Source: Sinorhizobium terangae (GTDB lineage Bacteria; Pseudomonadota; Alphaproteobacteria; Rhizobiales; Rhizobiaceae). From it: a DNA stretch of 64,000 nucleotides. The notes beneath the pieces are model-generated. The model made no database searches and was not told where the DNA came from. It saw only the letters and a list, made by a program, of their open reading frames with translations. The stretch is taken from the NCBI RefSeq assembly GCF_029714365.1, contig NZ_CP121659.1:248001-312000 (forward strand), given 5' to 3'. The translations under genes and the position numbers were made by a program. Of the stretch, positions 24,825 to 62,551 are shown piece after piece; the first letter of the stretch is position 1, and each line of letters begins with the position of its first letter.

Positions 24825-24847
24825 TTCGCGCAAGTTTCGCCACCTAG
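24825..24847 (+). promoter_or_regulatory. Class II flagellar element upstream of fliF
   Basis: TTCGCGCAAG at 24825-24834, 9 bp, then CTAG at 24844-24847. It lies 145 bp before the fliF start and within the 247-bp gap after cheT. It matches the arrangement seen at six other flagellar units in this window. Inference: a class II promoter or Rem site. Confidence 0.6.
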
Positions 24848-24991
24848 CTTCGCATCCGGGGCTGGTAGATTCGCGCGTATTGGACATCGGCTGAGCGCAA
24901 GCCGATACCCAGCGAACCCGAATGTTGGATCTGCGCAAGGCGTAGGCCGGATGACCGGCTGGCCTCTTGCGATACTGGGTGCGGAAACAGA

Positions 24992-26665
24992 ATGAATCTG
25001 TTCGATCAATTCTCGACGTTCACGAAAAACCTCGGCAGTCTGGGGCAAAGCAAACTGATCGCGCTCGCCGTGGCCGGTATCGTTGCGGTCGGCTTCGTCC
25101 TTGCAGCGGGCATCTACGTCAACAGACCTTCCTATGAAACGCTCTATGTCGGCCTTGAGCGCAGCGATGTGACCCAGATCAGCATTGCGCTTGCCGAGGC
25201 GAACATCGATTTCGATGTCGGGTCGGATGGCGGTAGCATCCAGGTTCCGGTCGGCATGACCGGCAAGGCCCGCCTGTTGCTTGCCGAACGGGGTCTGCCC
25301 AGCAGCGCCAATGCCGGTTACGAACTCTTCGACAATGTCGGATCGCTGGGTCTCACCTCCTTCATGCAGGAAGTGACGCGCGTTCGTGCGCTTGAGGGCG
25401 AAATTGCCCGCACCATCCAGCAAATTTCCGGCATCGCCGCCGCACGCGTGCACATCGTGATGCCGGAGCGCGGGAGCTTCCGCAAGGCCGACCAGACGCC
25501 GACGGCGTCTGTCATGATTCGCGCGAGCGCAACGGTTGGCCGCAATGCCGCCGCCTCGATCCGTCATCTCGTCGCATCCTCCGTGCCGGGGCTCGATGTC
25601 GACGACGTCACCATCCTCGACTCGACCGGACAGCTTCTCGCCTCCGGCGACGATCCGGCAAACAGCGCGCTCAACCAGTCGCTCGGCGTCGTCCAGAATG
25701 TCCAGACTGACCTCGAAAAGAAGATTGACAATGCGCTCGCGCCATTCCTCGGCATGGACAATTTCCGCACAAGCGTAACGGCGACGCTCAACACCGATGC
25801 GCAGCAGATCCAGGAAACCGTCTTTGACCCCGAGTCGCGTGTCGAGCGCTCGACCCGCGTGACCAAGGAAGAGCAGAAGTCCAGCCAGCAGCAGCCGGAC
25901 AATGCCGCAACCGTGCAGCAGAACGTGCCCCAGGCCGCACCGCGCGGTGGCGCCGGTCCCCAGTCCAGTGACGAGGCGGCAAAGAAGGAAGAGCAAACCA
26001 ACTACGAGATCAACAGCAAGACGATCGCCACCGTAAAGAGCAGCTATTCGATCGAGCGGCTGTCGATCGCCGTTGTCGTCAATCGCGGCCGCCTCGCGGC
26101 AATGGTGGGGGAACCGGCAGACCAGGCGAAGATCGACGCCTATCTCCAGGAAATGCAGAAGATCGTCTCCTCGGCCGCTGGCGTCGACGCAAACCGCGGC
26201 GACGTCGTCACGCTGAACGCGATGGATTTCGTCGAGACGCAATTGCTGGACCAGCCGGTTGCGGGCCCGGGCGTCATGGAAATGCTGACGCGCAATCTCG
26301 GCGGCATCATCAACTCGCTTGCCTTCGTTGCGGTCGCCTTCCTGGTTGTCTGGATGGGCATGCGGCCGCTCGCCCGCCAGATGGGTTTCGGCGGCAAGGC
26401 AGGCCAACTCGAAGGCGAGGCGGCCGGTCTCGAACTGCCCGACTTCTCGCCGGTCGGTGCCGGTGCCGGGGGTGCGCTCATGGAAGGCTTCGGCGCGGAC
26501 TTCGGCTTCGACAGCACCGACGACCTGCTCAACCTCGGCGAGGAGGGCAACTTCAACCGCCGGGTCAAGGAGGGACCGGAACGGCGGCTTGCCCGCATGG
26601 TGGAAATCAGCGAGGAACGCGCAGCGAAGATCCTGCGCAAATGGGCCCTCGACCGCGCCGCCTGA
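24992..26665 (+). CDS. fliF: Flagellar MS-ring protein FliF
   Basis: This 557-residue inner-membrane protein forms the MS ring. It has a hydrophobic segment at residues 23-45, ring-building modules (the YETLYVGLERSDV and RALEGEIARTIQQISG segments), a Gln/Pro-rich disordered stretch near 290-330, a second hydrophobic segment near 430-450, and a C-terminal FliG-binding tail ending AAKILRKWALDRAA. It is separated from cheT by a promoter region and followed by a strong terminator, so it is a one-gene unit. Confidence 0.95.
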   Translation: MNLFDQFSTFTKNLGSLGQSKLIALAVAGIVAVGFVLAAGIYVNRPSYETLYVGLERSDVTQISIALAEANIDFDVGSDGGSIQVPVGMTGKARLLLAERGLPSSANAGYELFDNVGSLGLTSFMQEVTRVRALEGEIARTIQQISGIAAARVHIVMPERGSFRKADQTPTASVMIRASATVGRNAAASIRHLVASSVPGLDVDDVTILDSTGQLLASGDDPANSALNQSLGVVQNVQTDLEKKIDNALAPFLGMDNFRTSVTATLNTDAQQIQETVFDPESRVERSTRVTKEEQKSSQQQPDNAATVQQNVPQAAPRGGAGPQSSDEAAKKEEQTNYEINSKTIATVKSSYSIERLSIAVVVNRGRLAAMVGEPADQAKIDAYLQEMQKIVSSAAGVDANRGDVVTLNAMDFVETQLLDQPVAGPGVMEMLTRNLGGIINSLAFVAVAFLVVWMGMRPLARQMGFGGKAGQLEGEAAGLELPDFSPVGAGAGGALMEGFGADFGFDSTDDLLNLGEEGNFNRRVKEGPERRLARMVEISEERAAKILRKWALDRAA

Positions 26666-26702
26666 CGAACGTTCGCAAGGCAAACGGCATTTCGCAGAAA
26701 AG

Positions 26703-26730
26703 TCCCGCCAAAAGTGGCGGGATTTTTTTG
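26703..26730 (+). terminator. Rho-independent terminator after fliF
   Basis: TCCCGCCA (26703-26710) pairs with TGGCGGGA (26715-26722) across a 4-base loop, followed by seven T. It ends the fliF transcript. Confidence 0.9.
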
Positions 26731-27524
26731 CCGTCGCATCAGTTCCGTCTCGTGTGGCCCCGCCAGAGATCCCGAACGCCGATTTTGGCGCCGGTCGAAA
26801 TATTGGCTGAGTCCGGCGTGTATTGGTGACTGAAAAGGGAATCGGCATCAAGAATCCGCTGCCGCCCACGGAGTCTCCGGCGAGTCGGCCGGCATGAAAA
26901 TTAACAATATCGCAACCTTTATAGATTCTGAGCCGCGGTTGGCGCCCCGACCGGCGGCGCATCTACTGATGGGCGCTGTGTCCAATGCTTAGTTTTCATC
27001 TAATATAGTTTCGACGAATCCAAATATAACGTGACATTGGTGCGGTTCTATTCATGGCGTTCACCGCGTCAGACTGCTCCGGAACCGATGCATTTCGGCA
27101 ACAGGCGCTGAGGTAAAGTAAATTCTGCCTTTATTTCGTTGGGAGCGTTTGGGCGAAAAAGCAGGCTTGCGGGCAGCACGAAATCGCGCGCGTGTCTTGG
27201 ATCGGAGGCACCTTCCTCAACTTTCGTGGCATCAAAATTGCATGAAAAAATATGGAATATCAATGTGGTATATCTGTTCACGCTGTTCCGCGCGGTTTTC
27301 GCTTGATCAGTCGCTAGGCAGGGAGATGCAAGGCCTTTCATCGGTCACTCTTGAAGTAACCGCCCGGATCGCGCCAGTGGTTTTTCCGCGGACGCGATGT
27401 ACAGTTTAGGAACTGATTCGCGTCCTGATTTGCGGATGGCGGTGAATATCGGTTCCGACCGGGCTGTCGGCGGCGATAACGAGCGCATGTCCAGGGCGTC
27501 GAACTCGGCACGGGGGCTGAAGTT
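26731..27524. promoter_or_regulatory. Long upstream region of visN
   Basis: About 790 bp without a convincing gene. It is clearly AT-richer than its neighbours at 26895-27060 and 27225-27270. It must carry the visNR promoter and probably a long leader or several regulator sites, because VisNR is the top of the flagellar hierarchy. Small open frames near 27149-27409 lack ribosome-binding sites. Confidence 0.5.
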
Positions 27525-28262
27525 ATGGACATTTCGCAGGCAGGGGCCGTCTGGCCTTTGCAGACGGCGGCGCCGCATCGAAGCGGTCGGGAAATTTCAA
27601 GGGAACAATTGATCCGGCGACTCGCTGAAACCGCCGAACGTGGTGGTTTCGCAAACGCACTTACGGCGCTGACCGATTACGTTGGTGCCACCCACTATCT
27701 GCTCGCGCGCCACGAGCTTTCGCAGGACGGCGGGCTTGATAGCGTCGTCTGCTCCGATTGGCCGTTCGATGTCGTGCGGCGGCTGGCCGGAATCGTCGTC
27801 GGCCTCAACGCCAAGACGACCGAACTGGAGAAGTGCCTCGCGGTCCTGCAGCCGTGTTTTCACACGATGCCGGACGACATAGACCTGCCTCGCGGGGTCA
27901 GCCGGGAATATTGCGCCATTGTTTTCAATGTCGGACGCGCTCGCTTCTCGCTGATGCTCCTGTTCCCCGCGGACGTCATCCTGTCGCAGGAGGGACTGCG
28001 CGATATCGCGCTGCTTGCCGCCTATGTCGCAAGCCTCAAGACCAGCGTCGATGCGCGGCATGAGCGCGAATGCGAACTGACCGAGCGCGAAATCGAATGC
28101 CTGTTCTGGATCGCCGAAGGCAAGACAAGCGAGGAGATCGCCGTCATCCTCGGGATATCGCGCAACACCATCAACAACTACATCACCAGCGTGATGCGAA
28201 AGACTGCGACGCGAACGAGGTCGGAAGCGATCGCCCACGCCGTTCGCAACAATCTGGTTTAG
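27525..28262 (+). CDS. visN: LuxR-type master flagellar regulator VisN
   Basis: This 245-residue protein has an N-terminal ligand-binding-like domain (residues about 20-165) and a C-terminal LuxR helix-turn-helix (LTEREIECLFWIAEGKTSEEI, IAVILGISRNTINNYITSVM). With VisR it forms the master activator of flagellar, motor and chemotaxis genes in S. meliloti. The start ATG at 27525 follows CGGGGG. visR begins 11 bp after its stop. Confidence 0.93.
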   Translation: MDISQAGAVWPLQTAAPHRSGREISREQLIRRLAETAERGGFANALTALTDYVGATHYLLARHELSQDGGLDSVVCSDWPFDVVRRLAGIVVGLNAKTTELEKCLAVLQPCFHTMPDDIDLPRGVSREYCAIVFNVGRARFSLMLLFPADVILSQEGLRDIALLAAYVASLKTSVDARHERECELTEREIECLFWIAEGKTSEEIAVILGISRNTINNYITSVMRKTATRTRSEAIAHAVRNNLV

Positions 28263-28273
28263 GGGAGGCACCG

Positions 28274-29017
28274 ATGGTTCATTTCGTCACAGGCGGTCGC
28301 CCCGAGGATGATGGCCGACTGGGCAGGAATGGGCGAGCTGCGCGTGCGGCCACCCTGGTGACACGGCTGCAGGCGATGCAGCGGCAAATCAATGCGAAGA
28401 ATTTCGCGGTCCTGCGCGTCAACGGCAGAGGCACGCCTGCGGCGCGCAAGTTGACCTGCGTTCTTCACAATTGGGGCACTGCGTGCGAGGCGAACGCGCG
28501 CGATCTCATTGGCATCTATGGTGAGGAACTGCTCGCACATCTCGACCGGTCCCTGCTGCCGGTCCTGTGGGATGGCCTCGGTGAGCACCAGGCCGCCGAA
28601 GCCGCCGATTTCCGCCCGTTCGCGCAGCGGCTGGCGGGACGAAAACTCGCCTATTCGGGAATCGCCTTTCCGGTCCGGCTCGGCGCCCAGGGCAACGGCT
28701 ATGTCGTCTTTACCAGCAGCTATATCGACGCGTCCAGCGAGCAGGTCGTCGAACTGCACGCGCAGAGCTGCCACATCATGACAGATATGCTCGCGGCAGA
28801 CGAAAGGCGGCTGTTTCAGGCGGAAGCGCTCAGCGACCGGGAGATCGCCTGTCTGCAGATGGCCGGCGACGGGCACATCAGCGAGGAAATTGCCGAGAAG
28901 ATGGGTCTCTCCGTGCACACGGTGAACGCCTATCTCGGGGCGGCAACGACGAAGCTCGACTCCGTCAATCGCATCCAGGCGATCGCCAAGGCGATACGCC
29001 TCGGTTACATCAGCTGA
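28274..29017 (+). CDS. visR: LuxR-type master flagellar regulator VisR
   Basis: This 247-residue paralogue of VisN has an N-terminal sensory-type domain and a C-terminal LuxR helix-turn-helix (LSDREIACLQMAGDGHISEEI, KMGLSVHTVNAYLGAA). The start ATG at 28274 is preceded by AGGGGAGG that overlaps the visN stop. It is expected to act as a heterodimer with VisN, activating rem. Confidence 0.93.
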   Translation: MVHFVTGGRPEDDGRLGRNGRAARAATLVTRLQAMQRQINAKNFAVLRVNGRGTPAARKLTCVLHNWGTACEANARDLIGIYGEELLAHLDRSLLPVLWDGLGEHQAAEAADFRPFAQRLAGRKLAYSGIAFPVRLGAQGNGYVVFTSSYIDASSEQVVELHAQSCHIMTDMLAADERRLFQAEALSDREIACLQMAGDGHISEEIAEKMGLSVHTVNAYLGAATTKLDSVNRIQAIAKAIRLGYIS

Positions 29018-29056
29018 CGAGTTGAACGGTGGCTCTCCGACACGAGAGCATCGGTG

Positions 29057-29106
29057 CTAAAGCGCGTCGCGTTCAAACGGCCTCAAGCGACGCGCTTTAG
29101 GTCTTT
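29057..29106. terminator. Bidirectional hairpin between visR and the flhB operon
   Basis: CTAAAGCGCGTCGC (29057-29070) and GCGACGCGCTTTAG (29087-29100) form a perfect 14-bp stem with a 16-base loop, followed by TCTTTGTTTT on the plus strand. It lies between convergent transcripts. Its sequence resembles a common rhizobial intergenic palindrome. Confidence 0.7.
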
Positions 29107-29160
29107 GTTTTCATGCATGTCGTTGGCCCAAAACCGCTGCACACTTTTGAGCGACATGCA

Positions 29161-29601
29161 TTAGCTCGCGAGCGGAAGGGCGTAAGATTTGACGAATTTC
29201 GCCTCTTCCAGGCTTTTCGCGAGGAAGACGGTGTTTTCGTCCGGATCCGTGGAGGGATGTTGGAAGCTGATATGGCTGATCTCGACCCCGGCGGTGTCGT
29301 TGCCGAGAGTCAGCCGCGCATAGACCGTAACGCCACGCAGCTTCAGTTCAAGGTCGAGAACGATCTCGGGGTTGCTGTCCCAATCCAGATTGTAGTTGCC
29401 ACCGAGGCCGAAATTCACCGTGCCGGGAAGGAAGTAGAGCTCGGCGGCAGACTCCACGAGGTCAGCGAGGCTCGCATGAGACTCGAATCGTAACAGCGCG
29501 ATGAAGTCCGCGGCGTCGACCAGACGCAGTTCTGTCGCCACCGGGCGGATTGCTTCCGCCACTATCTGCTCGCGCTTTTCGGAGAATTCGCACTTTTTCA
29601 T
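29161..29601 (-). CDS. Conserved flagellar-operon protein of unknown function
   Basis: This protein of about 146 residues starts 5 bp after the flhB stop, so it is co-transcribed with flhB. A GTG at 29610 overlapping that stop is an alternative. It is predicted soluble: a helical N-terminal half (REQIVAEAIRPVATELRLV, LADLVESAAELYF) and a beta-rich second half (VNFGLGGNYNLDW, IVLDLELKLRGVTVYARLTL). It has no signal peptide or named domain that I recognise. Placement behind flhB suggests a role in flagellar export or regulation, but this is inference. Confidence 0.75.
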   Translation of the reverse strand: MKKCEFSEKREQIVAEAIRPVATELRLVDAADFIALLRFESHASLADLVESAAELYFLPGTVNFGLGGNYNLDWDSNPEIVLDLELKLRGVTVYARLTLGNDTAGVEISHISFQHPSTDPDENTVFLAKSLEEAKFVKSYALPLAS

Positions 29602-29606
29602 CGAGA

Positions 29607-30689
29607 TCACGTCACCCGTTTTTGTTGCGGCTGAGCTGCATAAACCCGGTGAATGAGTTCGGCGACTGCCTTGTAAAACACCGGTGGAATAACACTATCC
29701 ACCGAGACTTGTGCAAACATGGAGCGTGCGAGCGGCGGATCCTCGAAGACCGGAATGCCGTTTTTTTCGGCAAGTTCGCGGATCTTGAGCGCGACAAGGT
29801 CCTGGCCCATGGCGACCACAACCGGTGCATCGTTCTCTTCGCGGACGTATCGGAGCGCGACGGCATAGTGTGTCGGGTTGGCGATCACCAATGTGGCACG
29901 CGGCACCGAGGAAATCATGCGCTTGCGCGCCCGATCACGCTGGATCGAGCGCAACCGCGACTTGACGATCGGGTCGCCCTGGGACTGTTTCAGTTCCTCC
30001 TTTACCTCCTGCTTCGTCATCATCAGTTCCGTGTACCAGTGATGCCGTGTCCAGAAGAGATCGACGATCGCAAGCACGGCCGTCGCCAGGAGCACGACGA
30101 TCATGATCTGCTTGAGGTCGGACGTCATGGCCGTGAAAATCGTCACCGGATCCGAGAACATCAGATCGAGCGTGGCGAAATAGTCGTTCCACAGAACGAG
30201 GACCACAACGGTCGAAACGATGACGATCTTGAACAGGGACTTGCCGAATTCGACCAATCCCTGCACGCCGTAGATGCGCTTGAAGCCGGCCGCAGGGGAT
30301 ATGCGGTTCATCTTCGGCTGAATGCGATCGAGGACTGGGCGAGGGAGGTTCTGGAAGGTCGACGATCCGACGCCGAAGATGATCAGCAGCACGAAGATCG
30401 GGACGAGCAGCGCCGCCGATTTCAGGATGATGTGCGAAATCAGCGCGACGACGTCGGTCGATGTGTCCAGCCTCCAGGCTTCCGGCTGCTCGAAAATGTC
30501 CTTGAGGGCCTCGGCGACGCTCGCGGCGCCATCCGACAGAAAGAAGACGACGAAGATATAAATCGCAAGCGTCGAGGCGAACACTGTCACCTCGCGGGAA
30601 AATGGGACGTTACCCTTGTCGGCGGCATCGGAGAGCTTCTTCTCCGATGGCGCCTCGGTCTTGCTGTCTTTGTCCTGATCTTCCGACAT
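29607..30689 (-). CDS. flhB: Flagellar export switch protein FlhB
   Basis: This 360-residue protein has four transmembrane helices in residues about 30-220 and a cytoplasmic domain with the autocleavage motif NPTH at 271-274 ([14 protein letters not shown]). Cleavage there changes export specificity from rod/hook to filament substrates. The N-terminus is charged ([18 protein letters not shown]). It is the first gene of a two-gene minus-strand unit. A degenerate class II-like sequence, rc TTCACGACAG, lies at 30763-30772. Confidence 0.94.
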
Positions 30690-30856
30690 GAAACAGGAAG
30701 CTCCCGGCGATTTCCCGATCGAACGTCACCCGATCAGGCAAGCCCGCGGCGATGCTCTCCCGCTGTCGTGAACCTCAAAGCTCAGGCGCGCAAGGGTCTG
30801 GCGACGCCGGTGGGGCCGGGTCAACAGGAATTATGGAGTTGCGGTCGCGACCGGCC

Positions 30857-31888
30857 TCAGGCGGCCTCCGCTTCCTTGTCCTTGAGCTCCAGCTGTCCGC
30901 TGGCGGCGAGGCGGATTGCCTCCTGCGTGATGGACCGTCTGGCGATCGCGATGTCGCGCGGGTTGATGCCTGCATCGCCGACAGCCAGATCCGATTCGAT
31001 CATACGGCGCTGACGGGCGCCGATCGACGCGAGAACCGATTCGCGCAGTTCCGGCGCCGAGCCGCGAAGCGCCATCGTGATGATGTCGGTGGAGACGTCG
31101 TTGAACAGTTGCACGCGGCTTCTCTGCGGCATGAAGAGAATGTCGTCGAAGAGGAAGATCTTCGGCCGGACCTTCTTGGCCGAGTCGGTGTTGATCGTCT
31201 CGAGCGAGGCGAGCAGCGTGTCCACCTGTCCCTTTTCGAGTTCGTTCATGACCTCGGCGATCTTGGCGGGTCCGGGCGAGTTGCGCTCGGCTTCCATCTC
31301 GTCGATCATTTCCATCACGCGCGCCTCGATGATGGCGGCCGCCTTCGGACTGACGTTCTTGATGTTGACGGCGCGGTTCAGGATGTCCGGCCGTTGTGTT
31401 TCCGAGAGCTGCAGCAGCACTTTGGCGCCGAAGCTCGAAGGCATCATCGACAGGACATAAGCGATCGTCTGCGGGTGTTCTTTGGCGAGCGACTGGGCAA
31501 CGAGCACCGGATCGCACTCCTGCAGACGATCCCAGATATTTGCTTCGTAGGATTGGAAGGTGGCGCGGCGGCCAAGCAGGCCATCGACCTCGTCCGGGGT
31601 CAGCCCTTCCTCCAGGATGCTCTCGATCGCCCGGGCATTGTCCATCAGGCCGGCGCCTTCGGTGAAAAGATCCTCGAATTCGTTGACGAGCGATTCGAGT
31701 TCGTGAGGCGGGATGGCGCGCAGTGACTGCGCCGCGGCGATGATGGCCTGGAGTTCGCTCTGGGTGAAGAACTTCAAGAGCTTCCCGGCTACGGACTTGC
31801 CCATCGCAAGCAATACGGCCGCCGCTTTGTCTGTCTGACTCAGCGGAGCTGCCGGCGTCTGTGCCCCGAAACTTTCGAAATCCATCAT
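30857..31888 (-). CDS. fliG: Flagellar motor switch protein FliG
   Basis: This 343-residue switch protein has the FliG N-terminal MS-ring-binding domain (TDKAAAVLLAMGKSVAGKLL), a middle domain (RPDILNRAVNIKNVSP) and the C-terminal torque helix with charged residues (DIITMALRGSAPELRESVLASI). It sits at the end of the motA-fliM-fliN-fliG minus-strand cluster and transmits torque from the stators. Confidence 0.94.
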   Translation of the reverse strand: MMDFESFGAQTPAAPLSQTDKAAAVLLAMGKSVAGKLLKFFTQSELQAIIAAAQSLRAIPPHELESLVNEFEDLFTEGAGLMDNARAIESILEEGLTPDEVDGLLGRRATFQSYEANIWDRLQECDPVLVAQSLAKEHPQTIAYVLSMMPSSFGAKVLLQLSETQRPDILNRAVNIKNVSPKAAAIIEARVMEMIDEMEAERNSPGPAKIAEVMNELEKGQVDTLLASLETINTDSAKKVRPKIFLFDDILFMPQRSRVQLFNDVSTDIITMALRGSAPELRESVLASIGARQRRMIESDLAVGDAGINPRDIAIARRSITQEAIRLAASGQLELKDKEAEAA

Positions 31889-31916
31889 GGATTTATCCCT
31901 CGCCCAATCATCGGGC

Positions 31917-33538: not shown

Positions 33539-34417
33539 TTATGCCGCCTTGCTTTCGCTGCCGCCGCCCGGGTTCATCATCTCCTGCTCGACGGCGTCGA
33601 TGGACGGCCGCTCATAGGCGGAGATCGTCTTGCGGCCATATTCGAGCGCGACCTGCGGAACCGAGCCGTTCATGTAGGCAAGCAGCGTCTGCTTGACGAT
33701 GACGTAGAGGCGGTTCTGCTTCTCGCGCACGGCCTTGATGTTGGCGACGAGCGGGCCGACGACCGAATAGGAGAGGAAGACGCCAAGCAGCGTTCCGACG
33801 AGTGCGGCGGCAATCTTGGCCCCAAGCACTTCCGGGGCCTCGTTGATGGCACCCATCGCCTTTATGACGCCGAGAACCGCTGCGACGATACCGATCGCCG
33901 GCAGCGCATCGCCCATGATCGTCAGCGAGTGATAACATTTCATCTTGTCATGGGTGATTGTCTGGATTTCCTCGTCCATCAGCGCCTCAATCTCATGTGA
34001 GCGGGCGTTGCCGATGATGATCAGCCGCACATAGTCGCAGATGAAGGCGGTCAGTTCCTTGTTCTGCAGGACGGTGGGCGCTGACTGGAAGATCGAGGAT
34101 TCTTCCGGGTTGTCGATGTGGCTCTCGATCTCGTTGCGGGATTTGGTCCTGAGATCGCGCATCAGGCTGTAGAGGACGCCGAGCGTATCAAGGTAGTGGC
34201 GCTCTTTCGGCACCTTATGCCTGAAGGCTTCGCCGAGCGCCTTGCCGGTGTCCTTCACGACCTTCATCGAGTTGGCCATGATGAAGCCGCCGATGCCTGC
34301 ACCGCCGATGATCATCAACTCGAAAGGCTGGTTCAGCACCTCCAGGTGGCCACCCATCGCGAGATATCCGCCGAGGATACAGCCGAAGGTCACAAGAAGC
34401 CCGATGATGATGTTCAT
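33539..34417 (-). CDS. motA: Flagellar stator protein MotA
   Basis: This 292-residue proton-channel subunit has four membrane helices and a large cytoplasmic loop between the second and third. The start ATG at 34417 is preferred because the protein then opens with its first helix, [20 protein letters not shown]. The C-terminus is charged and short. It leads the motA-fliM-fliN-fliG cluster and is far from motB, as in S. meliloti. Confidence 0.94.
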
Positions 34418-38299: not shown

Positions 38300-38680
38300 A
38301 TGGAACCGATTCAGCTTTTCGAACTTGCGTCGCGCCAGGCCCAATGGCTGACGGTTCGTCAGAACGTCGTGGCGGGGAACATCGCCAACGCCAATACGCC
38401 GCACTACCGGGCGAAAGACGTCGAGCCCTTTGAAAGCGTGCTGCAGAACACCGGCATCCAGATGGCGGCGACGCATCGCGCGCACTTCACCGAAAGCCCG
38501 GATGCCGCCCAGGTCACCGAAGTCAGCATGATCGACGACGTGCAGGTACAGCAGTCCGGCAACACGGTCGCGATCGAACAGGAAATGATGAAGACCGGTG
38601 AGATCAAGCGCGACTACGAGCTCAATGCCGGGCTCGTCAAAGCCTTTCACCGGATGATGCTCATGACGGTACGGAAATAA
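38300..38680 (+). CDS. flgB: Proximal rod protein FlgB
   Basis: This 126-residue rod protein has the N-terminal motif [20 protein letters not shown] and a long C-terminal helix. The start ATG at 38300 follows CAGGAG. It heads the long operon flgB-flgC-fliE-flgG-flgA-flgI-motE-flgH-fliL-fliP. Confidence 0.93.
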
Positions 38681-44651: not shown

Positions 44652-46631
44652 CTATCGCTCGAAGGAACCCTCGCGCGGCGGAAGTGCGGGAACATCGATG
44701 TGATCCGGTGGCAGCTTCTGCTTGGCGCGATCCACCATCATCTCATAGCCGCGCTCCAGGTGTCGGCAGAAGCGCTCCGCGTCGAACAGCGGCATGCGGA
44801 AGCGGTTCTCCTCGAGCGTCTTCCTGTATTCGGCGATTTTCTCGCGGTTCTCATAGAGTGCGACCGCTTCGGCGACATAGGCTTCGGCGCCGGCGGTCAC
44901 GAGTTCTGGAAGCCCGATCGCGTTGAGCAGGCTTTCGCTTACGCGCGAGGCGAAGTTGGTACCCTTGAAGGTCAGCACCGGCAAGCCTGCCCAGAGCTGT
45001 TCCGACGTGGTCGTGTGGCCGTTATAAGGATAGGTGTCGAGGCCGAGATCGGCCGCGGGCAGACGGTTGATATGCTCTGTATAGGCCGTCTTGCTGCACA
45101 GGATGATGCGTTTCGAAGCGATACCGCCGCTCTGGAACTTGCGCAGAATGTTGGCCTGCGCGTCCCTCTTGCACATGAGCCACAAAACGCTGTCCGGTGT
45201 TCGGCGAAGGATTTCGATCCAGAGATTGATCGTCTGCAGAGAGATCTTTCTGCTGGCGTTAAACGACGCAAAGACGAACGCGTCGTCCGGAAGGCCGAGG
45301 TCCTTTCGCGCAATGCCGTACGCGCGTGGGCGGTGATAGGGATCGTTCGGCTGATAGGTTTCCGGCAGTCGGCAGAACTTTTCGTAGTAATGATCCTGGC
45401 TTCCCTCAGGCAGCACATACGGGTCACCGATAACATAGTCGACATCGATGTTTGTCGCGGTTCCGGGAAAGCCGAGCCAGGAAACCTGAACCGGTGCAGC
45501 CTGATGGTTAAGGATCTTCAGCCGGTTGTCGAGCGTATGGCCCTTGAGGTCGACCAGGATATCGATGCCTTCTGAACGGATGACAGCCGCCGCCTCCTCA
45601 TCGGACATATCGTTGATGCGGACAATTCGTCCCCAGTTGCCGCGGTTGCCGCGATCGCGGGCCAGGTTGCTCTCCTTCGTATGGCAAAAGAGCGTGACCT
45701 CGAATCTTTCCGGATCGTGTAGTTCCAATACTGCCTGAAGCAACTTCATCGTTGCATGCTGATCCCAGAAGTCCGCCGAAAGATATCCGATGCGGATCTT
45801 CTTCGCCCATTGATGCGGCATGTTGCGTCGCGCCTCGGTAATTGCGGAAGCAAAAGGTTGGCTCCTTGCGCCGGCCCATCGGTTAAGCTTTTCATCGCCG
45901 CACCACGTAACGTGATAGTAAGGGGACTCGGCAGCTAGGATCTGGTATTTCCCCGCATCCAGGGCTTTCTGGACGTCCGGATAGTACTTCTCGATCTCTA
46001 CGTAGTCGTTAGCCTCGCGGGCGAAGACGAGATAGGCCGCCCGCAACACCGTGCTCTTCGGATTTTTCCGGAAGAGATTGACGACTGCATCGCGATCCTG
46101 CGCATCGTCGATATCGGCCGTCAGAAGCTTGAAGGCGAGAGACTGGTGCTGGATATTTGCGCTGGTGGAAAGCGGCGCCTTGAACAGGCCGAGAATTTCC
46201 TTCTGGTCCCGCTTCAAGAAGATGGATGCGATGATGAATGCGATGTCCGGGTCGGTCTTCGCCTTTTCGAGAAGGGGAAGACCGATGCTGAGCGCCTCGT
46301 CCTCGTTGCCGCACGCAAAGTGCAGCTTCATCGCTTCGGTCAAATAATGTTCCGAACGCGAACCCTTCTCCTCTCCGGCCAATTGATAGGCGCGCGCCGC
46401 ATCGGTCTTGAAGCCAAGTTTCAAGAGGACCTTCGCCAGGAGGACGAATGTCTTGGCCTCCCGGCTGATGTTCATCAGGTGGTTAAGCTGGTTGAGCGCC
46501 TCGGTGTACTGGCCTTTCTGATATTGCCGGGAGGCGGTCGTGAAGAGGGCATGCGCGTTCAAGTGCGGCTCCGTCGCATAGGGCGGACAGCGGTCGGCGT
46601 CCTGCCGCTCCAGTCCTGATTCGATCGACAT
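44652..46631 (-). CDS. GT41 (OGT/SPINDLY-type) glycosyltransferase with TPR-like region
   Basis: This 659-residue protein has helical TPR-like repeats in residues about 25-210 and a GT41 catalytic region from about 270. Family blocks are IRIGYLSADFWDQHATMKL, APVQVSWLGFPGTATNIDVD, FASFNASRKISLQTINLW and DLGLDTYPYNGHTTTSEQLW, matching eukaryotic and bacterial O-GlcNAc transferase-like enzymes that modify Ser/Thr. It reads against the flanking flagellar genes, between fliP and the three flagellin genes. No clear ribosome-binding site precedes the ATG. Inference: it glycosylates flagellin in the cytoplasm before export. It could instead modify another protein. Confidence 0.88.
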   Translation of the reverse strand: MSIESGLERQDADRCPPYATEPHLNAHALFTTASRQYQKGQYTEALNQLNHLMNISREAKTFVLLAKVLLKLGFKTDAARAYQLAGEEKGSRSEHYLTEAMKLHFACGNEDEALSIGLPLLEKAKTDPDIAFIIASIFLKRDQKEILGLFKAPLSTSANIQHQSLAFKLLTADIDDAQDRDAVVNLFRKNPKSTVLRAAYLVFAREANDYVEIEKYYPDVQKALDAGKYQILAAESPYYHVTWCGDEKLNRWAGARSQPFASAITEARRNMPHQWAKKIRIGYLSADFWDQHATMKLLQAVLELHDPERFEVTLFCHTKESNLARDRGNRGNWGRIVRINDMSDEEAAAVIRSEGIDILVDLKGHTLDNRLKILNHQAAPVQVSWLGFPGTATNIDVDYVIGDPYVLPEGSQDHYYEKFCRLPETYQPNDPYHRPRAYGIARKDLGLPDDAFVFASFNASRKISLQTINLWIEILRRTPDSVLWLMCKRDAQANILRKFQSGGIASKRIILCSKTAYTEHINRLPAADLGLDTYPYNGHTTTSEQLWAGLPVLTFKGTNFASRVSESLLNAIGLPELVTAGAEAYVAEAVALYENREKIAEYRKTLEENRFRMPLFDAERFCRHLERGYEMMVDRAKQKLPPDHIDVPALPPREGSFER

Positions 46632-46881
46632 GTTTCAGGGGACATTGTCGCTGCCGGACCTTGCCTCAGGCGTGACTCCAAGATTGTTGGCTTACACCTG
46701 TCAAGGAGATGTGCTGCGACGAAAAAACTACATGAGGTCAGTCATTTAATTGTGCGTTAAGCATGATTCGAGCCATCCGGAACAGGCACCCGCATTTAAT
46801 GAATTTGCAAGCATTGGTCTCGATATTCGTCTCCACATGACGGGTTTGGTTTCTTCCAAAGGATGTTTGTTGGAACCGAGA

Positions 46882-49272: not shown

Positions 49273-49421
49273 GCTGTATTTAGGTATTCCTCAATCTTTG
49301 TTTATTTTCGTTTATTTTTATTACTGCCTCGTAAAGCCCGTTAACTATTTGTTAACCATCAAATCGTTACATCTTCGTTAAGAGCGAGGGGCCGTCTCTC
49401 AGGGCAAATTAGAGGCGGTTC

Positions 49422-50619: not shown

Positions 50620-50642
50620 TTCGCGCAAGTTTGACCGAATAG
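50620..50642 (+). promoter_or_regulatory. Class II flagellar element upstream of the fliH-like/motB unit
   Basis: TTCGCGCAAG at 50620-50629, 9 bp, then ATAG at 50639-50642. It lies about 255 bp before the first gene, the longest leader among the seven copies. Confidence 0.55.
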
Positions 50643-52761: not shown

Positions 52762-54066
52762 ATGCTGAAGCGGCTGCACGCCATCCTCCTGACGTCGGTT
52801 CTGGCCTTCCCGCTTGCCGTCGGGCTTGCCCGGGCGCGAGAGGCTGAAGAGCTCGCGCCCTTCAAGATGATAAGGTCGCTGCAATATGTTCAGGATTCGG
52901 TCGTGCTCGGCGATCATTCCGCAATCGAGATGCAGCGCTTCATGCTGGGCGCGATCGACAAGCGGCTGAGGGTCGTCGAGCAATCGGCCTTCCGCGATCC
53001 GCGCAACGTCGACGCGGCGCTGGTCTATGTCATGAGCGGCGGTAACCCTGACACACTCGACTATCTGGCCGACCGCGATATCGAAGGCAATTTCGATAGC
53101 CGGATAACGGACGCGCTGCGGCAATATCTGAGCGGCAAGGGCGCGCTCACCGTCGAGACGCTTTCGAAGGCGGCGCCGGAATACAAGAACGCCCGCATCG
53201 GCCCCTATCTTTTTCTGATCCTCGGCAACGCGACCTCGCAGCAGAACCCCCTGGCTGCGATGAAATACTATGACTGGGCCCGTCTGACTGCGCCGGGCAC
53301 GATCATCGAGGAGGCGGCGCTGCGCCGTTCCGTCTTTCTTGCACTGAAGGCGAACGAACCCGACAAAGGGTTTCGTTACGCTTTAAGTTATGCGCGCCGC
53401 TACCTGACGTCGCCTTACGCAAGTCAGTTCGCGGACGTGTTCGTCGAACTCGCGGTTGCACATTTCGACGAAGCCGCCGAGCAGAAGATCTCCGAAATCC
53501 TGGCCTTCATGGATCAACCGCGCCAGCGCGAGGTCTATCTTCGCGTCGCCCGGCGTGCGGCGATCGGCGGCAACCAGGCGCTCGCGCGGCTTGCCTCGCA
53601 GCGGGCCGAAGGTCTCGCCGACGGAGGCGCTTCGCAGTCGCAGGTACTCGCGAGCTTCTACGAGGGGCTCGCCGCAGTGCCCTCTGCGGACGTGTTCGCC
53701 GCCACCGAGACCATCAATGCAATCCCTGATGAAAAGCTGTCTCCGCGCGACCGTGCGCTCCGCGATGCGGCCAAGACGGTTGCGGACGCGGTGGTGCAAC
53801 TGCCGCAGGATGAAAGCTTCACACAAGCGTCAGCGCCTACACAAGACGGAATCGCCGCGGTAGAGGGCCAGCTTGTGCCCGAGGAGACGGGAAGCGGGAT
53901 GAGCCCGTTCGGCGAGGCGGCTGAGGCACCGGGTCAGCCGAGGGACGGTGGCCAGACCAGCGTCGGAGCGGCCCCATCTGCGGATCCGGCGTTTGAAGGG
54001 TTCGTCACCAACGGTCGCTCGAAGATCGCTGAGATCGATGCGCTCCTGAAGGAGGAAGGACTATGA
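52762..54066 (+). CDS. motC: Periplasmic motility protein MotC
   Basis: This 434-residue protein has an N-terminal signal peptide (residues about 1-26, ending LARA), then helical repeats and an acidic C-terminus. It is specific to rhizobia and relatives; in S. meliloti it binds the periplasmic part of MotB and is needed for motor function. The start ATG at 52762 lies 4 bp after the motB stop. It overlaps fliK by 4 bp. Confidence 0.92.
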   Translation: MLKRLHAILLTSVLAFPLAVGLARAREAEELAPFKMIRSLQYVQDSVVLGDHSAIEMQRFMLGAIDKRLRVVEQSAFRDPRNVDAALVYVMSGGNPDTLDYLADRDIEGNFDSRITDALRQYLSGKGALTVETLSKAAPEYKNARIGPYLFLILGNATSQQNPLAAMKYYDWARLTAPGTIIEEAALRRSVFLALKANEPDKGFRYALSYARRYLTSPYASQFADVFVELAVAHFDEAAEQKISEILAFMDQPRQREVYLRVARRAAIGGNQALARLASQRAEGLADGGASQSQVLASFYEGLAAVPSADVFAATETINAIPDEKLSPRDRALRDAAKTVADAVVQLPQDESFTQASAPTQDGIAAVEGQLVPEETGSGMSPFGEAAEAPGQPRDGGQTSVGAAPSADPAFEGFVTNGRSKIAEIDALLKEEGL

Positions 54067-56345: not shown

Positions 56346-57017
56346 ATGATCGTGGTGGTTGATGATAGAGAGCTCGTAAAGGATGGCTACACGTCCTTGT
56401 TCGGGCGCGAAGGTATTCCCTCGACGGGGTTTGATCCGAGGGAATTCGGCGAGTGGGTAAACACGGCTGCGGACTCGGATATCGACGCGGTCGAAGCGTT
56501 TCTGATCGGGCAGGGCGACAGCGCATTCAGCCTGCCGCGCGCGATCCGTGACCGCTCCATGGCACCGGTCATCGCGATGAGCGACACACCTTCGCTCGAA
56601 AACACCCTGGCGCTGTTCGACTGCGGGGTCGACGACGTCGTGCGCAAGCCGGTGCACCCGCGCGAGATCCTCGCTCGGGTTGCCGCGATCCGCCGGCGCC
56701 TCAAGGCCATCACCAACTACACCGATATCGGCCCGATCCGCGTTTTCGCCGACGGCCGCGATCCGGAAATCAACGGCGAGGTCTTCGCCCTGCCGCGGCG
56801 CGAGCGGCGCATTCTCGAATACTTGGTCGCGAACCGCGGCCGCCGCGTGTCGAAGTCGCAGATCTTCAACGCGATCTACGGCATCTTCGACGAGGACGTC
56901 GAGGAGAACGTCGTCGAAAGCCACATCAGCAAACTGCGCAAGAAGCTGCGCAAGAAGCTCGGTTTCGACCCGATCGATTCCAAGCGTTTCCTTGGCTACT
57001 GCATCGACTGGAATTGA
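56346..57017 (+). CDS. rem: OmpR-type flagellar regulator Rem/FtcR
   Basis: This 223-residue regulator has an N-terminal receiver-like domain ([12 protein letters not shown]) and a C-terminal winged helix ([20 protein letters not shown], then [16 protein letters not shown]). The position where a phosphoacceptor Asp is expected reads AFLIGQGD, so the receiver is atypical and may act without phosphorylation. In S. meliloti, VisNR activates rem and Rem activates class II genes. The 272-bp upstream gap is AT-rich and probably carries the VisNR site. Confidence 0.9.
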
Positions 57018-57050
57018 GTGCCGGCACCGAGCCGGGCAGCTCAAGACAGG

Positions 57051-57073
57051 TTCACGCAAGGCCCGGCTCCTAG
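57051..57073 (+). promoter_or_regulatory. Class II flagellar element upstream of flgE
   Basis: TTCACGCAAG at 57051-57060, 9 bp, then CTAG at 57070-57073, 31 bp before the flgE start. It is close to the strongest consensus of the set. Confidence 0.65.
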
Positions 57074-57104
57074 TGTCGCCGCAACGAGGAATTGAGGATC
57101 CGAC

Positions 57105-58334
57105 ATGAGTCTCTACGGTACCATGAGAACCGGCGTTTCAGGTATGAACGCCCAATCGAACCGGCTCAGCACGGTCGCAGAGAACATCGCGAACGCCAAT
57201 ACGACCGGCTATAAGCGGGCGTCGACGGAATTCTCGTCGATGATCCTGCCGTCGAGCAACGGTGCCTACAATTCCGGCGGCGTGCAGACCCAGGTCCGTT
57301 ACAGCATCTCCGAGCAGGGTGCGACGACCTACACCACGTCCGGCAGCGATCTCGCCATCGACGGCGGTGGCTTCTTCATCGTTGAAGGCGCAAACGGTCA
57401 GGAATATCTGACGCGCGCCGGCGCCTTCGTCCCGGACAAGGAAGGCAATCTCGTCAACGCCGCCGGCTTCACGCTGATGGGCTACGAGTACCAGGCTGGC
57501 GCGGATCCGACGGTTGTCGTCAACGGCTTCGACGGTCTGACTAAGGTGAATCTCAGCTCGGAAGGCTTGGTCGCGCAGGGGTCGACGAAGGGGTCGATGG
57601 GCGCCAATCTTCCTTCAGGCGCCGCCGTAGGCGATGCGTCCACCACGTCGCTCGTCGTCTATGACAGCCAGGGCAACACACGCATTCTCGATTTTGTGTA
57701 CACGAAAACCGCAGCAAACAATTGGTCAGTCGAAATCCGCGATCGTGCGACCTATACCGCCGGTCCGCCGGCCACCGGTGTACTCGGCACCGCGGCCTTG
57801 GCCTTTGATGCAAGCGGGGCGCTCACAACCTCTCCGGCAACGCTCACGACCACGGCGATGACCGGTCTGCCCGGCACTGGCGCGAACCTTGCCGCGATCA
57901 CCATCGACCTCACCAAGACCACCCAACTTGGCTACGCCTTCAACTCCGATGGCGGTACGATCGACGGCAACGCGCCGAGCAAGGTCGCCGGTTTCCAGAT
58001 CGACTCCGACGGCATCGTCTACGTCAAGTACGAAAACGGCAAGCTCGACCCACGTTATCGCATCGCTCTTGCCAACGTGCAGAGCCCAGACAAGCTGCTG
58101 CCTGAGTCCGGCAACGTCTATTCGCAGGGCGTCGACTCCGGCGTCATCATCACCGGCTTCGCCGGTGCCGGTAACTTCGGCGAAATCCTTTCCGGGGCGC
58201 TCGAAAGCTCCAATGTCGACATCGCTGAAGAACTGACGGCGATGATCGAATCCCAGCGCAACTACACGGCTAACTCCAAGGTCTTCCAGACTGGCTCCGA
58301 ACTGCTCGACGTGCTGGTCAACCTGAAACGGTAA
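57105..58334 (+). CDS. flgE: Flagellar hook protein FlgE
   Basis: This 409-residue hook subunit has N-terminal MNAQSNRLSTVAENIANANT and C-terminal SNVDIAEELTAMIESQRNYT, with the variable middle in between. It heads the operon flgE-flgK-flgL-flaF-flbT-flgD-fliQ. Confidence 0.95.
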   Translation: MSLYGTMRTGVSGMNAQSNRLSTVAENIANANTTGYKRASTEFSSMILPSSNGAYNSGGVQTQVRYSISEQGATTYTTSGSDLAIDGGGFFIVEGANGQEYLTRAGAFVPDKEGNLVNAAGFTLMGYEYQAGADPTVVVNGFDGLTKVNLSSEGLVAQGSTKGSMGANLPSGAAVGDASTTSLVVYDSQGNTRILDFVYTKTAANNWSVEIRDRATYTAGPPATGVLGTAALAFDASGALTTSPATLTTTAMTGLPGTGANLAAITIDLTKTTQLGYAFNSDGGTIDGNAPSKVAGFQIDSDGIVYVKYENGKLDPRYRIALANVQSPDKLLPESGNVYSQGVDSGVIITGFAGAGNFGEILSGALESSNVDIAEELTAMIESQRNYTANSKVFQTGSELLDVLVNLKR

Positions 58335-58358
58335 TCGAAAAGAGAGACGGTCCGCGTT

Positions 58359-59816
58359 ATGTCGCTGTCCACCGCAATCACAATCGCGCAATCGGCTTTC
58401 AACAACACGGCGGCTCAGACGGCCATCGTATCGAAGAACGTCGCGAACGCGGGCAACGCGGATTATTCGCGCCGCATGGCGCTGCTGGGCTCGACGCCGA
58501 ACGGAGCGCAGGTCGTCTCGATCTATCGGGCGCAGAACGAGGCACTGCTTAAGCAGACCATATCGAGCATCGGCCAGTCGTCCGGCCAGGCTCGTCTGCT
58601 TTCCGGTTTGGAGCTCCTGAAATCGTCACTCGGCGGCAACGACTACGAAACGTCGCCGGCGACATACCTGGCGACGTTCCGGGACAGCCTGCAGACTTTC
58701 GCGTCGACGCCCGGAAACCCCTCGATGGCCGCTTCCGCGGTGTCGGACGCTGGCGATTTGGCCAACGCGATCAGCACGACGGCGAATGCCGTTCAGAGCC
58801 TGCGCGCCGACGCCGACAAGGAGATCGCGATCGAGGTCGAGAAGCTGAACAGCCTGCTTGCCGATTTTGAAAAGGCGAACAATGCGGTGAAATCGGCGAC
58901 GGCTCAGGGGCAGGACGCGAGCGAAGCCCTCGACCAACGCGACAAGATCTTGAAGCAGGTGTCTGAGATCATCGGCATCTCGACCGTGACGAGAGCCAAT
59001 AACGACACGGTGATCTACACGGCAGATGGCACGGTGCTCTTCGAGACCATGCCGCGGTCCGTCACCTTTGCTCCGAAGGCAGCCTATGATGCGACGATCA
59101 CCGGCAACAAGATCTATGTCGACGGTGTACCGGTTGCCGCGGGTTCCGGTGCCAACACGACGGCCGAAGGCAAGCTGGCGAGCCTGCTTCAATTGCGCGA
59201 CGACGTCGCGCCAAAATTTCAGTCGCAGCTCGACGAAATTGCCCGTGGTCTGGTGACCCTCTTCCAGGAGGGCAATCCGTCCGGCGTGCCGCCGATGCCC
59301 TATGCACCCGGGCTCTTCACCTGGGCAGGCGGTACGGTCCCGCCGGCGGGCACGGTCGTTCCCGGTCTTGCGGCGACGCTTGCCGTCAATCCCTTGGCGA
59401 AAGCCAATCCGATGCTGCTGCGCGACGGTGGCTTCAACGGCGTCGTGTCCAATCCGGGCGGCGCTGCAACGCCCGATGCGGGCTACACCGCCCTGCTCGA
59501 AGGCTTCATCGATGCCATGGGTAAGGACATGGCCTTCGATCCCGCAACGGGCCTCGACGGAAGCAGCTCGATCCTCGATTTCGCGACATCGTCGATCGGC
59601 TGGCTGGAGCAGCTGCGCAGCACCGCTTCAACCGCTAGCGACAACAAATCGGCGCTTCTCGCCCGCACGCAGGAGGCGCTCAGCAAGGAAACGGGTGTCA
59701 GCATCGATGAGGAATTGTCCCTGCTGCTCGACCTGGAGCAATCCTACAAAGCATCGGCCAAGCTGGTCAGCACCGTGGACGCCATGATGGCGGCCCTTCT
59801 CGAAGCTGTGAGGTAA
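58359..59816 (+). CDS. flgK: Hook-filament junction protein FlgK
   Basis: This 485-residue junction protein has N-terminal IAQSAFNNTAAQTAIVSKNV and C-terminal SIDEELSLLLDLEQSYKASA helices that polymerise like flagellin. It starts 24 bp after flgE. Confidence 0.93.
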   Translation: MSLSTAITIAQSAFNNTAAQTAIVSKNVANAGNADYSRRMALLGSTPNGAQVVSIYRAQNEALLKQTISSIGQSSGQARLLSGLELLKSSLGGNDYETSPATYLATFRDSLQTFASTPGNPSMAASAVSDAGDLANAISTTANAVQSLRADADKEIAIEVEKLNSLLADFEKANNAVKSATAQGQDASEALDQRDKILKQVSEIIGISTVTRANNDTVIYTADGTVLFETMPRSVTFAPKAAYDATITGNKIYVDGVPVAAGSGANTTAEGKLASLLQLRDDVAPKFQSQLDEIARGLVTLFQEGNPSGVPPMPYAPGLFTWAGGTVPPAGTVVPGLAATLAVNPLAKANPMLLRDGGFNGVVSNPGGAATPDAGYTALLEGFIDAMGKDMAFDPATGLDGSSSILDFATSSIGWLEQLRSTASTASDNKSALLARTQEALSKETGVSIDEELSLLLDLEQSYKASAKLVSTVDAMMAALLEAVR

Positions 59817-59818
59817 TT

Positions 59819-60877
59819 ATGAAGACGTCCTTCGTTTCGAACCTGGCGGTGCAAAACGCCATGCGGCTGACGATTCAGCAGCAACAGGCGGAGATGCTCA
59901 ACCTTCAAAAGGAACTGACGACGGGCCGCCACGCCGATGTCGGGCTCACGCTCGGAGCAACGACCTCGCGCTCGCTCAACCTGCAACGCGAGCTGGCGCG
60001 CATGAACGCGCTGACAAGCACGAATTCGATCGTCAACCAGCGGCTCTCTGCCTCCCAGGAGGCGCTCGAGACGATGGCGAGCGCGGCACAAAAGGTCCGC
60101 GATACGCTGGTGACCTTCAAAGGCAACGATTCCGCCGACAAATTGGCTATTCAGAAGACCGAAATCGACAGCGCGCTTTCGCTGTTCACGGCAGCGGCGA
60201 ATACCTCGTTCAATGGCGAGTTTCTGTTTTCCGGCATCAATTCCGACGCGAAGCCGCTCGCGGACTACAATTCGACGGTGACCTCGGCCGCCAAGACTGC
60301 GTTCAACACGGCGCTGTCGACATATATGGCCGCCCAGGTTCCGCCTCTGACGTCGATGGACCAGTTCTCTGTCACGCAGATGCAGGATTTCATCACGACG
60401 GTCGTGGAGCCGATGTATACCGGCGCCCAATGGGACGCCGATTGGTCCGATGCATCGAACCAGAATATGACGAGCCGCATCAGCACGTCCGAGGTGATCG
60501 AAAGCTCGACGAACGTCAACACGACCGGGGTCCGGATGTTCGCGATTGCAAGCGTTCTCGCCTCGGAGCTGATGGACAAGGGCGTCACTTCGGAAGTCCG
60601 CAGCGCAATCGGCGAAGCGGCCCTTGATTACGTCGAAAAGGGGATCACCGGCATCGACGCCGAGCGCAGCGCACTTGGCGTCGCCGAGGCTCGCGTGAAG
60701 AAGGCAAACGACTCGCTTGCGGCGCAGATCAAACTCGTCACCACGCATATCGGCGACATCGAAGGCATCGACGAGGAGGCGGCGTCGACGCGGATAAACC
60801 TTCTGAAAACGCAACTTGAGACATCTTACACGCTCACATCGCGGATTCAGCAGTTGAGCTTGCTCAATTTCCTCTGA
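59819..60877 (+). CDS. flgL: Hook-filament junction protein FlgL
   Basis: This 352-residue flagellin-like junction protein opens with NLAVQNAMRLTIQQQQAEML and ends NLLKTQLETSYTLTSRIQQL with SLLNFL. It begins two bases after the flgK stop. Confidence 0.93.
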   Translation: MKTSFVSNLAVQNAMRLTIQQQQAEMLNLQKELTTGRHADVGLTLGATTSRSLNLQRELARMNALTSTNSIVNQRLSASQEALETMASAAQKVRDTLVTFKGNDSADKLAIQKTEIDSALSLFTAAANTSFNGEFLFSGINSDAKPLADYNSTVTSAAKTAFNTALSTYMAAQVPPLTSMDQFSVTQMQDFITTVVEPMYTGAQWDADWSDASNQNMTSRISTSEVIESSTNVNTTGVRMFAIASVLASELMDKGVTSEVRSAIGEAALDYVEKGITGIDAERSALGVAEARVKKANDSLAAQIKLVTTHIGDIEGIDEEAASTRINLLKTQLETSYTLTSRIQQLSLLNFL

Positions 60878-60912
60878 TCGGGAGGAACCGGACAAACATG
60901 AAGGATGTCTGA

Positions 60913-62113
<1,201 letters not shown>

Positions 62114-62120
62114 TTTCCGT

Positions 62121-62387
62121 ATGAACGAGGCGGACGCCCTTGATATTGTGCAGGCTGCGATCTGGACGGTGATCGTGGCCTCCGGTCCCGCCGTCCTCGC
62201 CGCCATGGTGGTCGGCGTCGTCATCGCGTTCATTCAGGCCCTGACCCAAGTCCAGGAAATGACGCTGACCTTCGTGCCGAAGATCCTGGCCGTCATGATC
62301 ACCGTCGCCGTTTCCGCACCCTTCGTCGGTGCGCAGATATCCATCTTCACCGACATCATCTTCTCCCGGATCCAGTCCGGATTCTAG
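62121..62387 (+). CDS. fliQ: Flagellar export-gate protein FliQ
   Basis: This 88-residue two-helix membrane protein has the FliQ signature AFIQALTQVQEMTLTFVPKI. It lies 7 bp after flgD, the last gene of the flgE operon. It forms the export gate with FliP and FliR. Confidence 0.93.
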   Translation: MNEADALDIVQAAIWTVIVASGPAVLAAMVVGVVIAFIQALTQVQEMTLTFVPKILAVMITVAVSAPFVGAQISIFTDIIFSRIQSGF

Positions 62388-62458
62388 AGCAAGGATCGCT
62401 CCGAGTTAGTCGCTGCGGCTTTGCCCCGCGCGCTTTCACTTCGAGCGCTTGGCGAAGC

Positions 62459-62500
62459 ACCCCCCTCCGCCCTGTCGGGCATCTCCCCCACAAGGGGTAT
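62459..62500. repeat. Common rhizobial intergenic palindromic sequence
   Basis: ACCCCCCTCCGCCCTGTCGG continues to TCTCCCCCACAAGGGG, a repetitive sequence type seen between genes in many rhizobial genomes. It sits in the 231-bp gap between fliQ and flhA. I recognise the type but did not find a second copy in this window. Confidence 0.45.
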
Positions 62501-62528
62501 CAACATCAGCACCATTTTCTATACCACC

Positions 62529-62551
62529 CTCGCGCAAGCTTGGGCCTTTAG
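62529..62551 (+). promoter_or_regulatory. Class II flagellar element upstream of flhA
   Basis: CTCGCGCAAG at 62529-62538, 9 bp, then TTAG at 62548-62551, 67 bp before the flhA start. It suggests flhA starts a new transcript rather than being read only from flgE. Confidence 0.55.

Follow-up and report, generated by a model that had tools for sequence, protein, structure and literature searches.

The flagellar genes of Sinorhizobium and Agrobacterium are controlled by the VisNR-Rem cascade, in which Rem, an aspartate-less response regulator of class IB, is described as directly activating class II genes (PMC9812332). The same regulator and the same class II operons are present in the DNA considered here, a stretch of 64,000 nucleotides from Sinorhizobium terangae (contig NZ_CP121659.1). 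We call this whole stretch the window, and coordinates given without a prefix are window positions. Rem and its class II targets have been described before, and what is added here is a candidate operator: a short element, found before seven flagellar operons, that we predict to be the operator of the orphan OmpR-family activator Rem (whose relatives include FtcR and LafR) fused to the class II flagellar core promoter. We give this reading, which rests on sequence comparisons, a probability of roughly 85%. Also going beyond the published cascade are an intragenic copy of the element upstream of rem and a candidate target outside the flagellar cluster. Our literature search, which did not extend to the 2006 Rem paper, found no published Rem operator, nor one common to Rem, FtcR and LafR, and earlier publication is possible.

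Several described systems are comparable. In Brucella, FtcR is described as a master regulator of flagellar genes with a binding site upstream of fliF, and a chromatin immunoprecipitation sequencing study gives its motif as TGTGGGCA (PMC9456535), which shares nothing with our element. LafR is the class IB regulator of Bradyrhizobium lateral flagella, and the available part of its description contains no operator (PMC5996035); in one genome that we guess to be Bradyrhizobium-like, motA and flgE are both preceded by the element, and a Rem relative is encoded alongside. A study of transcription start sites in S. meliloti presents, in the part available, three new promoter motifs, none of which is this element (PMC3616915). 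In Helicobacter pylori, the pseudo-receiver regulator HP1043 is reported to bind direct repeats immediately upstream of -10 boxes (PMC5253667), and HP1043/HsrA is named among regulators with pseudo-receivers (PMC12632262). However, its repeats are TTTAAG, lie 11 bp apart and serve key cellular genes rather than flagellar ones, whereas the half-sites that we assign to Rem are mostly 10 bp apart and have other letters. At PhoB-type promoters, the pho box replaces the -35 element, and the tandem half-sites end about 10 bp before the -10 hexamer. The PhoB half-site differs in sequence from that proposed here, and Rem is without the phospho-acceptor aspartate.

Architecture of the element at seven flagellar operons

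A first-pass annotation of the window had described a bipartite element consisting of YTC-R-CGCAAG, a gap of exactly 9 bp and a CTAG-like tetranucleotide. When the letters of the window were rechecked, all seven copies were found where they had been reported, each on the reported strand. CGCAAG is invariant in the seven, and exactly 9 bp separate it from the tetranucleotide, which is CTAG three times and otherwise ATAG, TTAG, CTAT or TCAG. The initial YTC is present in six copies; the flgB copy begins with CCC. The copies precede fliF, motA (on the minus strand), DUF1217-flgF-fliI, flgB, a 219-amino-acid (219-aa) open reading frame (ORF) followed by motB and motC, flgE and flhA. They are listed as predicted operators with their predicted -10 hexamers.

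24821..24850, + strand: operator and -10 (TAGCTT) before fliF; half-sites CAAG/CAAG; 26.5 bits
34454..34483, - strand: operator and -10 (TATTCC) before motA-fliM-fliN-flhB; half-sites CAGC/CAAG; 23.5 bits
34516..34545, + strand: operator and -10 (CAGGAT) before DUF1217-flgF-fliI, divergent; half-sites CAGG/CAAG; 26.0 bits
38244..38274, + strand: operator and -10 (TAGGTT) before flgB (ATG at 38300); 25.0 bits
50616..50645, + strand: operator and -10 (TAGCCT) before the 219-aa ORF-motB-motC operon; half-sites CATT/CAAG; 28.2 bits
57047..57076, + strand: operator and -10 (TAGTGT) between rem and flgE; half-sites CAGG/CAAG; 24.9 bits
62525..62554, + strand: operator and -10 (TAGGTC) before flhA (ATG at 62619); half-sites CACC/CAAG; 27.4 bits

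The earlier description, CGCAAG plus a CTAG box unlike a sigma-70 promoter, needs to be replaced. As read from the aligned sequences, what is conserved is a tandem repeat with a 10-bp period, CAG(S)-YTCRCG-CAAG, followed by 10 bp and then YAnnnT; that is, a putative tandem operator joined to a sigma-70-like -10 hexamer, without a -35 element. The upstream half-site had been missed: CA(G) lies 10 bp before CAAG, with C at position -4 in six of the seven copies and A at -3 in all of them. In the flgB copy, the distance from the upstream CAAG to the second CAAG is 11 bp, not 10 bp. CTAG proves to be the left edge of a TAnnnT-like -10 hexamer, whose last T is present in five of the seven copies and missing from those of motA and flhA.

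For comparison, 97 upstream regions (81 of operon-head genes and 16 of flagellin genes) were taken from distant genomes that encode Rem, and 65 distinct copies scoring at least 7.5 bits were kept. When aligned, these sites have C-4 in 67%, A-3 in 94%, G-2 in 79%, the letters of CAAG in 94-99%, A21 in 91% and T25 in 81%; positions -4 to -1 and 25 were not used when choosing the sites. The invariance of CGCAAG is a property of the lineage of the window, and beyond it the wider core is TC-N4-CAAG. The CTAG palindrome was rejected as a box of its own because the letters kept in this alignment are YA and the last T. No -35 consensus is seen in the 65 sites. If YAnnnT is the -10 hexamer, then -23 is the last position of the second half-site, and the repeat occupies the region in which a -35 element would be expected. 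A direct repeat with a period of 10-11 bp and a fixed spacing to the -10 hexamer, two features expected of an OmpR/PhoB-type operator, are both found.

An unsupervised gapped-word test, in which no motif was supplied, was applied to 145-bp stretches upstream of 78 operon-head genes (fliF, flgB, flgE, flhA, motA and DUF1217) and 194 internal genes of distant clusters with Rem, the same clusters as those used in the matrix work. The test covered the 629 frequent words among 380,728 encountered. The top word was AG-N7-CAAG (47/78 head versus 8/194 internal genes, p = 1.3e-23), and CA-N8-CAAG (43/78 versus 8/194), CGCAAG (43/78 versus 9/194) and CAAG-N10-TA (32/78 versus 8/194) were also enriched. 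Because the test starts from no prior motif, both half-sites and the -10 hexamer return on their own.

This result bears on the idea that the Rem operator comprises only the repeat, that the YA block reflects composition or a constraint on the leader, and that the promoters lie elsewhere. Poor conservation of the sigma-70 -10 region has been described for S. meliloti (PMC3616915), and the last T missing from the motA and flhA copies would also fit this idea. It is nonetheless improbable, given that CAAG-N10-TA is enriched without supervision and that T25 is frequent among the 65 sites although it played no part in their selection.

Our preferred reading, a Rem operator fused to a core promoter, suggests the following mechanism. 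A Rem dimer would bind two same-strand half-sites, CAGS and CAAG, whose 10-bp separation corresponds to one DNA turn and places them on one face. The second half-site would end 10 bp before YAnnnT, at approximately -23, in place of a -35 element. Given that no -35 consensus is seen, we propose that RNA polymerase with the housekeeping sigma factor needs Rem to open these promoters. Transcription is predicted to start 7 nt after the hexamer, which would make the leader 19-58 nt long in five of the seven cases, 135 nt at fliF and ~240 nt at the 219-aa ORF. The motA copy overlaps the first ATG of the longest motA ORF (34468), and the true motA start is probably the ATG at 34417, 39 nt past the 23-bp block of the element. 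A 74-aa ORF after the site at 50620 was not counted as a gene, as its 21 tblastn hit lines came from near relatives only.

The full element is rare, and most of its exact matches lie before flagellar operons. A first pattern, YYCRCGCAAG-N10-TAG, has 6 exact matches in the 6.63-Mb genome, 5 of them at these operons. A refined pattern, CANNYYCRCGCAAG-N11-A, matches exactly at 8 places, of which 6 are at these operons, and the flgB copy is one mismatch away. Enrichment of the first pattern disappears once two mismatches are tolerated (744 matches versus 1402 for a reversed control), which indicates that the signal sits in the full element and not in a vague likeness to it. The element had also been said to be absent upstream of the flagellin, visN, rem and che genes. 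This is borne out in the regions tested, namely 400 bp upstream of three flagellin genes, visN, visR, rem and three ORFs of the presumed che region, where the highest score was 7.4 bits versus 23.5-28.2 bits for the seven copies.

Association of the element with rem

The proposed binder is encoded between the motC and flgE copies of the element.

56346..57017, + strand: rem, orphan OmpR-family regulator

The C-terminus of Rem is a winged helix (PF00486, 60.8 bits versus a cut-off of 26.2), and its N-terminus is receiver-like, below the Pfam cut-off. Glu50 of Rem aligns where RegX3 has an aspartate that we take to be the phospho-acceptor. Among 34 Rem sequences, 42-100% identical to that of the window, the recognition region is highly conserved.

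Rem orthologues occur in 83 of 297 genomes of the order (best E at most 3.2e-49; the next best genome has 7.7e-25). The first pattern is found in 46 of these 83 genomes versus 32 of the 214 without Rem, and among the matches listed, 34 of 105 lie within 60 kb of rem. Exact matches to the refined pattern occur in 67/83 genomes with Rem versus 62/214 without it; the former hold 151 matches (11 for the reversed control), and the latter 91 (25 for the control). In a sample of 101 genomes of the family, the 84 with Rem have 218 matches and 16 control matches, with at least one match in 71 genomes and at least two in 59. The 17 family genomes without Rem have 15 matches and no control match, with at least one in 9 genomes and at least two in 4. 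Among the matches listed for 47 family genomes with Rem, 108 of 141 lie within 60 kb of rem and 37 of 141 within 1 kb. In both samples, the element is found where rem is present and near it, as expected of a Rem regulon.

The binder might instead be VisNR, a LuxR-type master regulator whose genes, visN and visR, share the cluster with the copies of the element and which ranks higher than class II genes in the cascade as published (PMC9812332). However, VisR was found at E <= 1e-10 in just 2 of 20 genomes with Rem, the genome of the window included, and 17 of the 18 others have a site of at least 12 bits before a head or flagellin gene (G001 has none). The element does not follow visR across genomes, for which reason VisNR was rejected as its binder. 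In addition, LuxR-type sites are usually palindromes, whereas the repeat is direct, with half-sites 10 bp apart. We regard binding by VisNR as very unlikely.

Similarly slim are the chances that the element is the promoter of an alternative sigma factor, consisting of two recognition blocks with no separate activator site. Two blocks at a fixed spacing and the lack of a -35 consensus in the aligned copies would suit such a promoter. On the other hand, recognition of a -35 and a -10 element requires a wider gap than the 9-10 bp found between the blocks. The downstream block also agrees with those positions of the sigma-70 -10 hexamer that are most strongly conserved, a direct repeat is present upstream, and the presence of the element follows rem.

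The annotation had proposed a Rem/FtcR target overlapping the core promoter of class II genes. Co-occurrence and co-localization with rem, persistence where VisR was not found, the position before the same operon heads in distant genomes and the tandem geometry typical of OmpR-family activators all speak for this proposal; its account of the boxes does not stand. An operator with a -10 partner would make the class II regulon predictable in genomes with Rem.

Conservation before operon heads

We compared 80 loci around rem that come from named records; they are the best 80 among 402 relatives, and most are from Rhizobiaceae. The element lies before flgE in 80/80 loci, with its 23-bp block ending 30-34 bp before the gene, and before flhA in all 78 loci, of the 80 examined, where this gene was found. 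The 600 bp that precede the 219-aa ORF contain a site of at least 15 bits in 80/80 loci; this distance is needed, as a 250-bp limit gives just 31/80 at 12 bits or more. The expected conservation in relatives is borne out, with copies far above chance. In loci L073, L081 and L099, the flgE element does not adjoin rem but is separated from its end by ~1.7 kb, and L081 has a further copy directly 3' of rem.

In 29 distant genomes scored with the window matrix, sites of at least 12 bits precede motA in 10/12 cases, flgE in 11/15, fliF in 7/18 and flgB in 5/11, but flhA in 2/10, DUF1217 in 1/12 and the 219-aa ORF in 0/3, versus 3/225 for control genes. These counts used a 250-bp limit and do not include the motA site that is present in genome G104.

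Several observations weigh against assigning the element to Rem. Conservation among distant genomes is uneven, as the counts for DUF1217, the 219-aa ORF and flhA illustrate, and nine of these genomes were chosen for an exact match near rem, while the other twenty have Rem and no such match. No exact match is found in 13/84 family genomes and 16/83 order genomes with Rem. Genomes without Rem exceed their reversed controls (91 versus 25 and 15 versus 0), so part of the signal is due to composition or chance. The sampled genomes are related and not independent, and p-values are guides only. Finally, the FtcR motif has 0 occurrences on either strand of the window, and it was rejected as the identity of the element because of this absence.

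Candidate targets within motC, outside the cluster and at flagellin genes

Although the element is absent immediately before rem, a copy within motC precedes the rem gene by 2.5 kb.

53814..53843, + strand: eighth, intragenic copy, in motC; 20.0 bits at 53818 (extended matrix)

By comparison, the highest score in 20 resampled windows is 18.5 bits. The extended matrix depends on the window, in that the seven-site window matrix chose the distant sites that trained it. With the extended matrix, 29717 (- strand) in flhB also scores 22.8 bits; this match was left out as likely protein coding, with an in-frame QVSVD and a weaker match at the same offset in genome G136.

The 23-bp block of the motC copy ends 222 bp before the start of fliK, and the genes downstream on the same strand are fliK, an SLT transglycosylase gene and rem, which also has its own 272 bp of upstream DNA. 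In 62 of 81 loci (the window included), the tail of motC has a site of at least 12 bits, 175-301 bp before the end of motC and in the same codon frame in 62/62; in the other 19 loci, 10 of them Shinella, the score is below 12 bits. These data suggest that the motC copy is a candidate promoter for fliK, the SLT gene and rem. Transcription from it would close a positive feedback loop onto rem, a chain that we infer from gene order.

An unlikely alternative is that this site reflects conservation of the MotC protein. The copies are in frame, and the Gln codon and the following codon, which starts with G, are constant. This constancy is partly built in, as the 57 distinct copies were picked by a score that rewards CAAG and A21. 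Even so, the Gln codon is CAA in 57/57 copies, whereas 14 flagellar genes of the window have 47 CAA and 191 CAG. A21 is likewise present in 57/57, although its residue varies (T, I, K, R, N or S), and T20, the preceding third position, is found in 54/57. Because the copies were chosen by a score that rewards the same letters, synonymous shuffles are the fairer test, and they give single-genome p-values of 0.005-0.03 where the motC site has at least 12 bits.

A ninth copy lies outside the flagellar cluster, before a gene for a 216-aa protein that adjoins a PCMT gene.

C1:1230272 (block from C1:1230276): ninth copy, CAGC-CTCGCG-CAAG-CTT-N7-TA, before the 216-aa gene

Pfam scans assigned no family to the 216-aa protein; its homologues carry PF27488 and, in their source records, names that refer to a putative role with biotin. 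The model of this protein is poor (mean predicted local distance difference test score, pLDDT, of 64) and gave no PDB match at E <= 0.001. The 216-aa gene was found in 7 of 61 family genomes, that of the window included, and the element lies upstream of it in 7/7 (10.8-21.8 bits). In six of the seven, 11 bp (in a single case 12 bp) separate the end of a TTAA-N7-TTAA box of the CtrA type from the block downstream, and the copy may serve this gene together with CtrA. Gene order would hide both this target and the motC-internal one, which the operator exposes. A second distant exact match to the refined pattern, at C2:1376600, is within the upstream part of an ORF for a LuxR-type regulator.

Boxes of the CtrA type also occur in the window, at flagellin genes that lack the Rem element.

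46746..46760, + strand: TTAA-N7-TTAA (CtrA-type) box before a flagellin gene (46967)
49341..49355, + strand: TTAA-N7-TTAA (CtrA-type) box before a flagellin gene (49495)

CtrA was rejected as the binder of the element, as these are the only two exact boxes in the window and both precede flagellin genes. Their location is in line with a study of S. meliloti in which CtrA is described as acting directly on flagellins and indirectly on most motility genes (PMC4433202). In the available part of that study, CtrA is reported not to bind rem, and CtrA depletion to leave rem unchanged, and the route from CtrA to most flagellar genes is an open question (PMC4433202). Given this report on rem itself, a gene with a composite CtrA-Rem promoter bears on this question. 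We tentatively suggest that Rem feeds back on itself through a promoter within motC and that a composite CtrA-Rem promoter drives the PF27488 gene, which would make this gene a candidate for connecting flagellar assembly to the cell cycle.

The element also shows in which lineages flagellin genes carry it. Sites are present in 3/146 flagellin upstream regions of the named-record loci and in 7/16 of those in distant clusters, the latter 124-170 bp before the projected start codon. These distributions suggest that flagellin genes have come under Rem control or escaped it. In the window, a glycosyltransferase-like ORF (44652-46631, - strand), whose NCBIfam match is far below its cut-off, lies between fliP and the flagellin genes.

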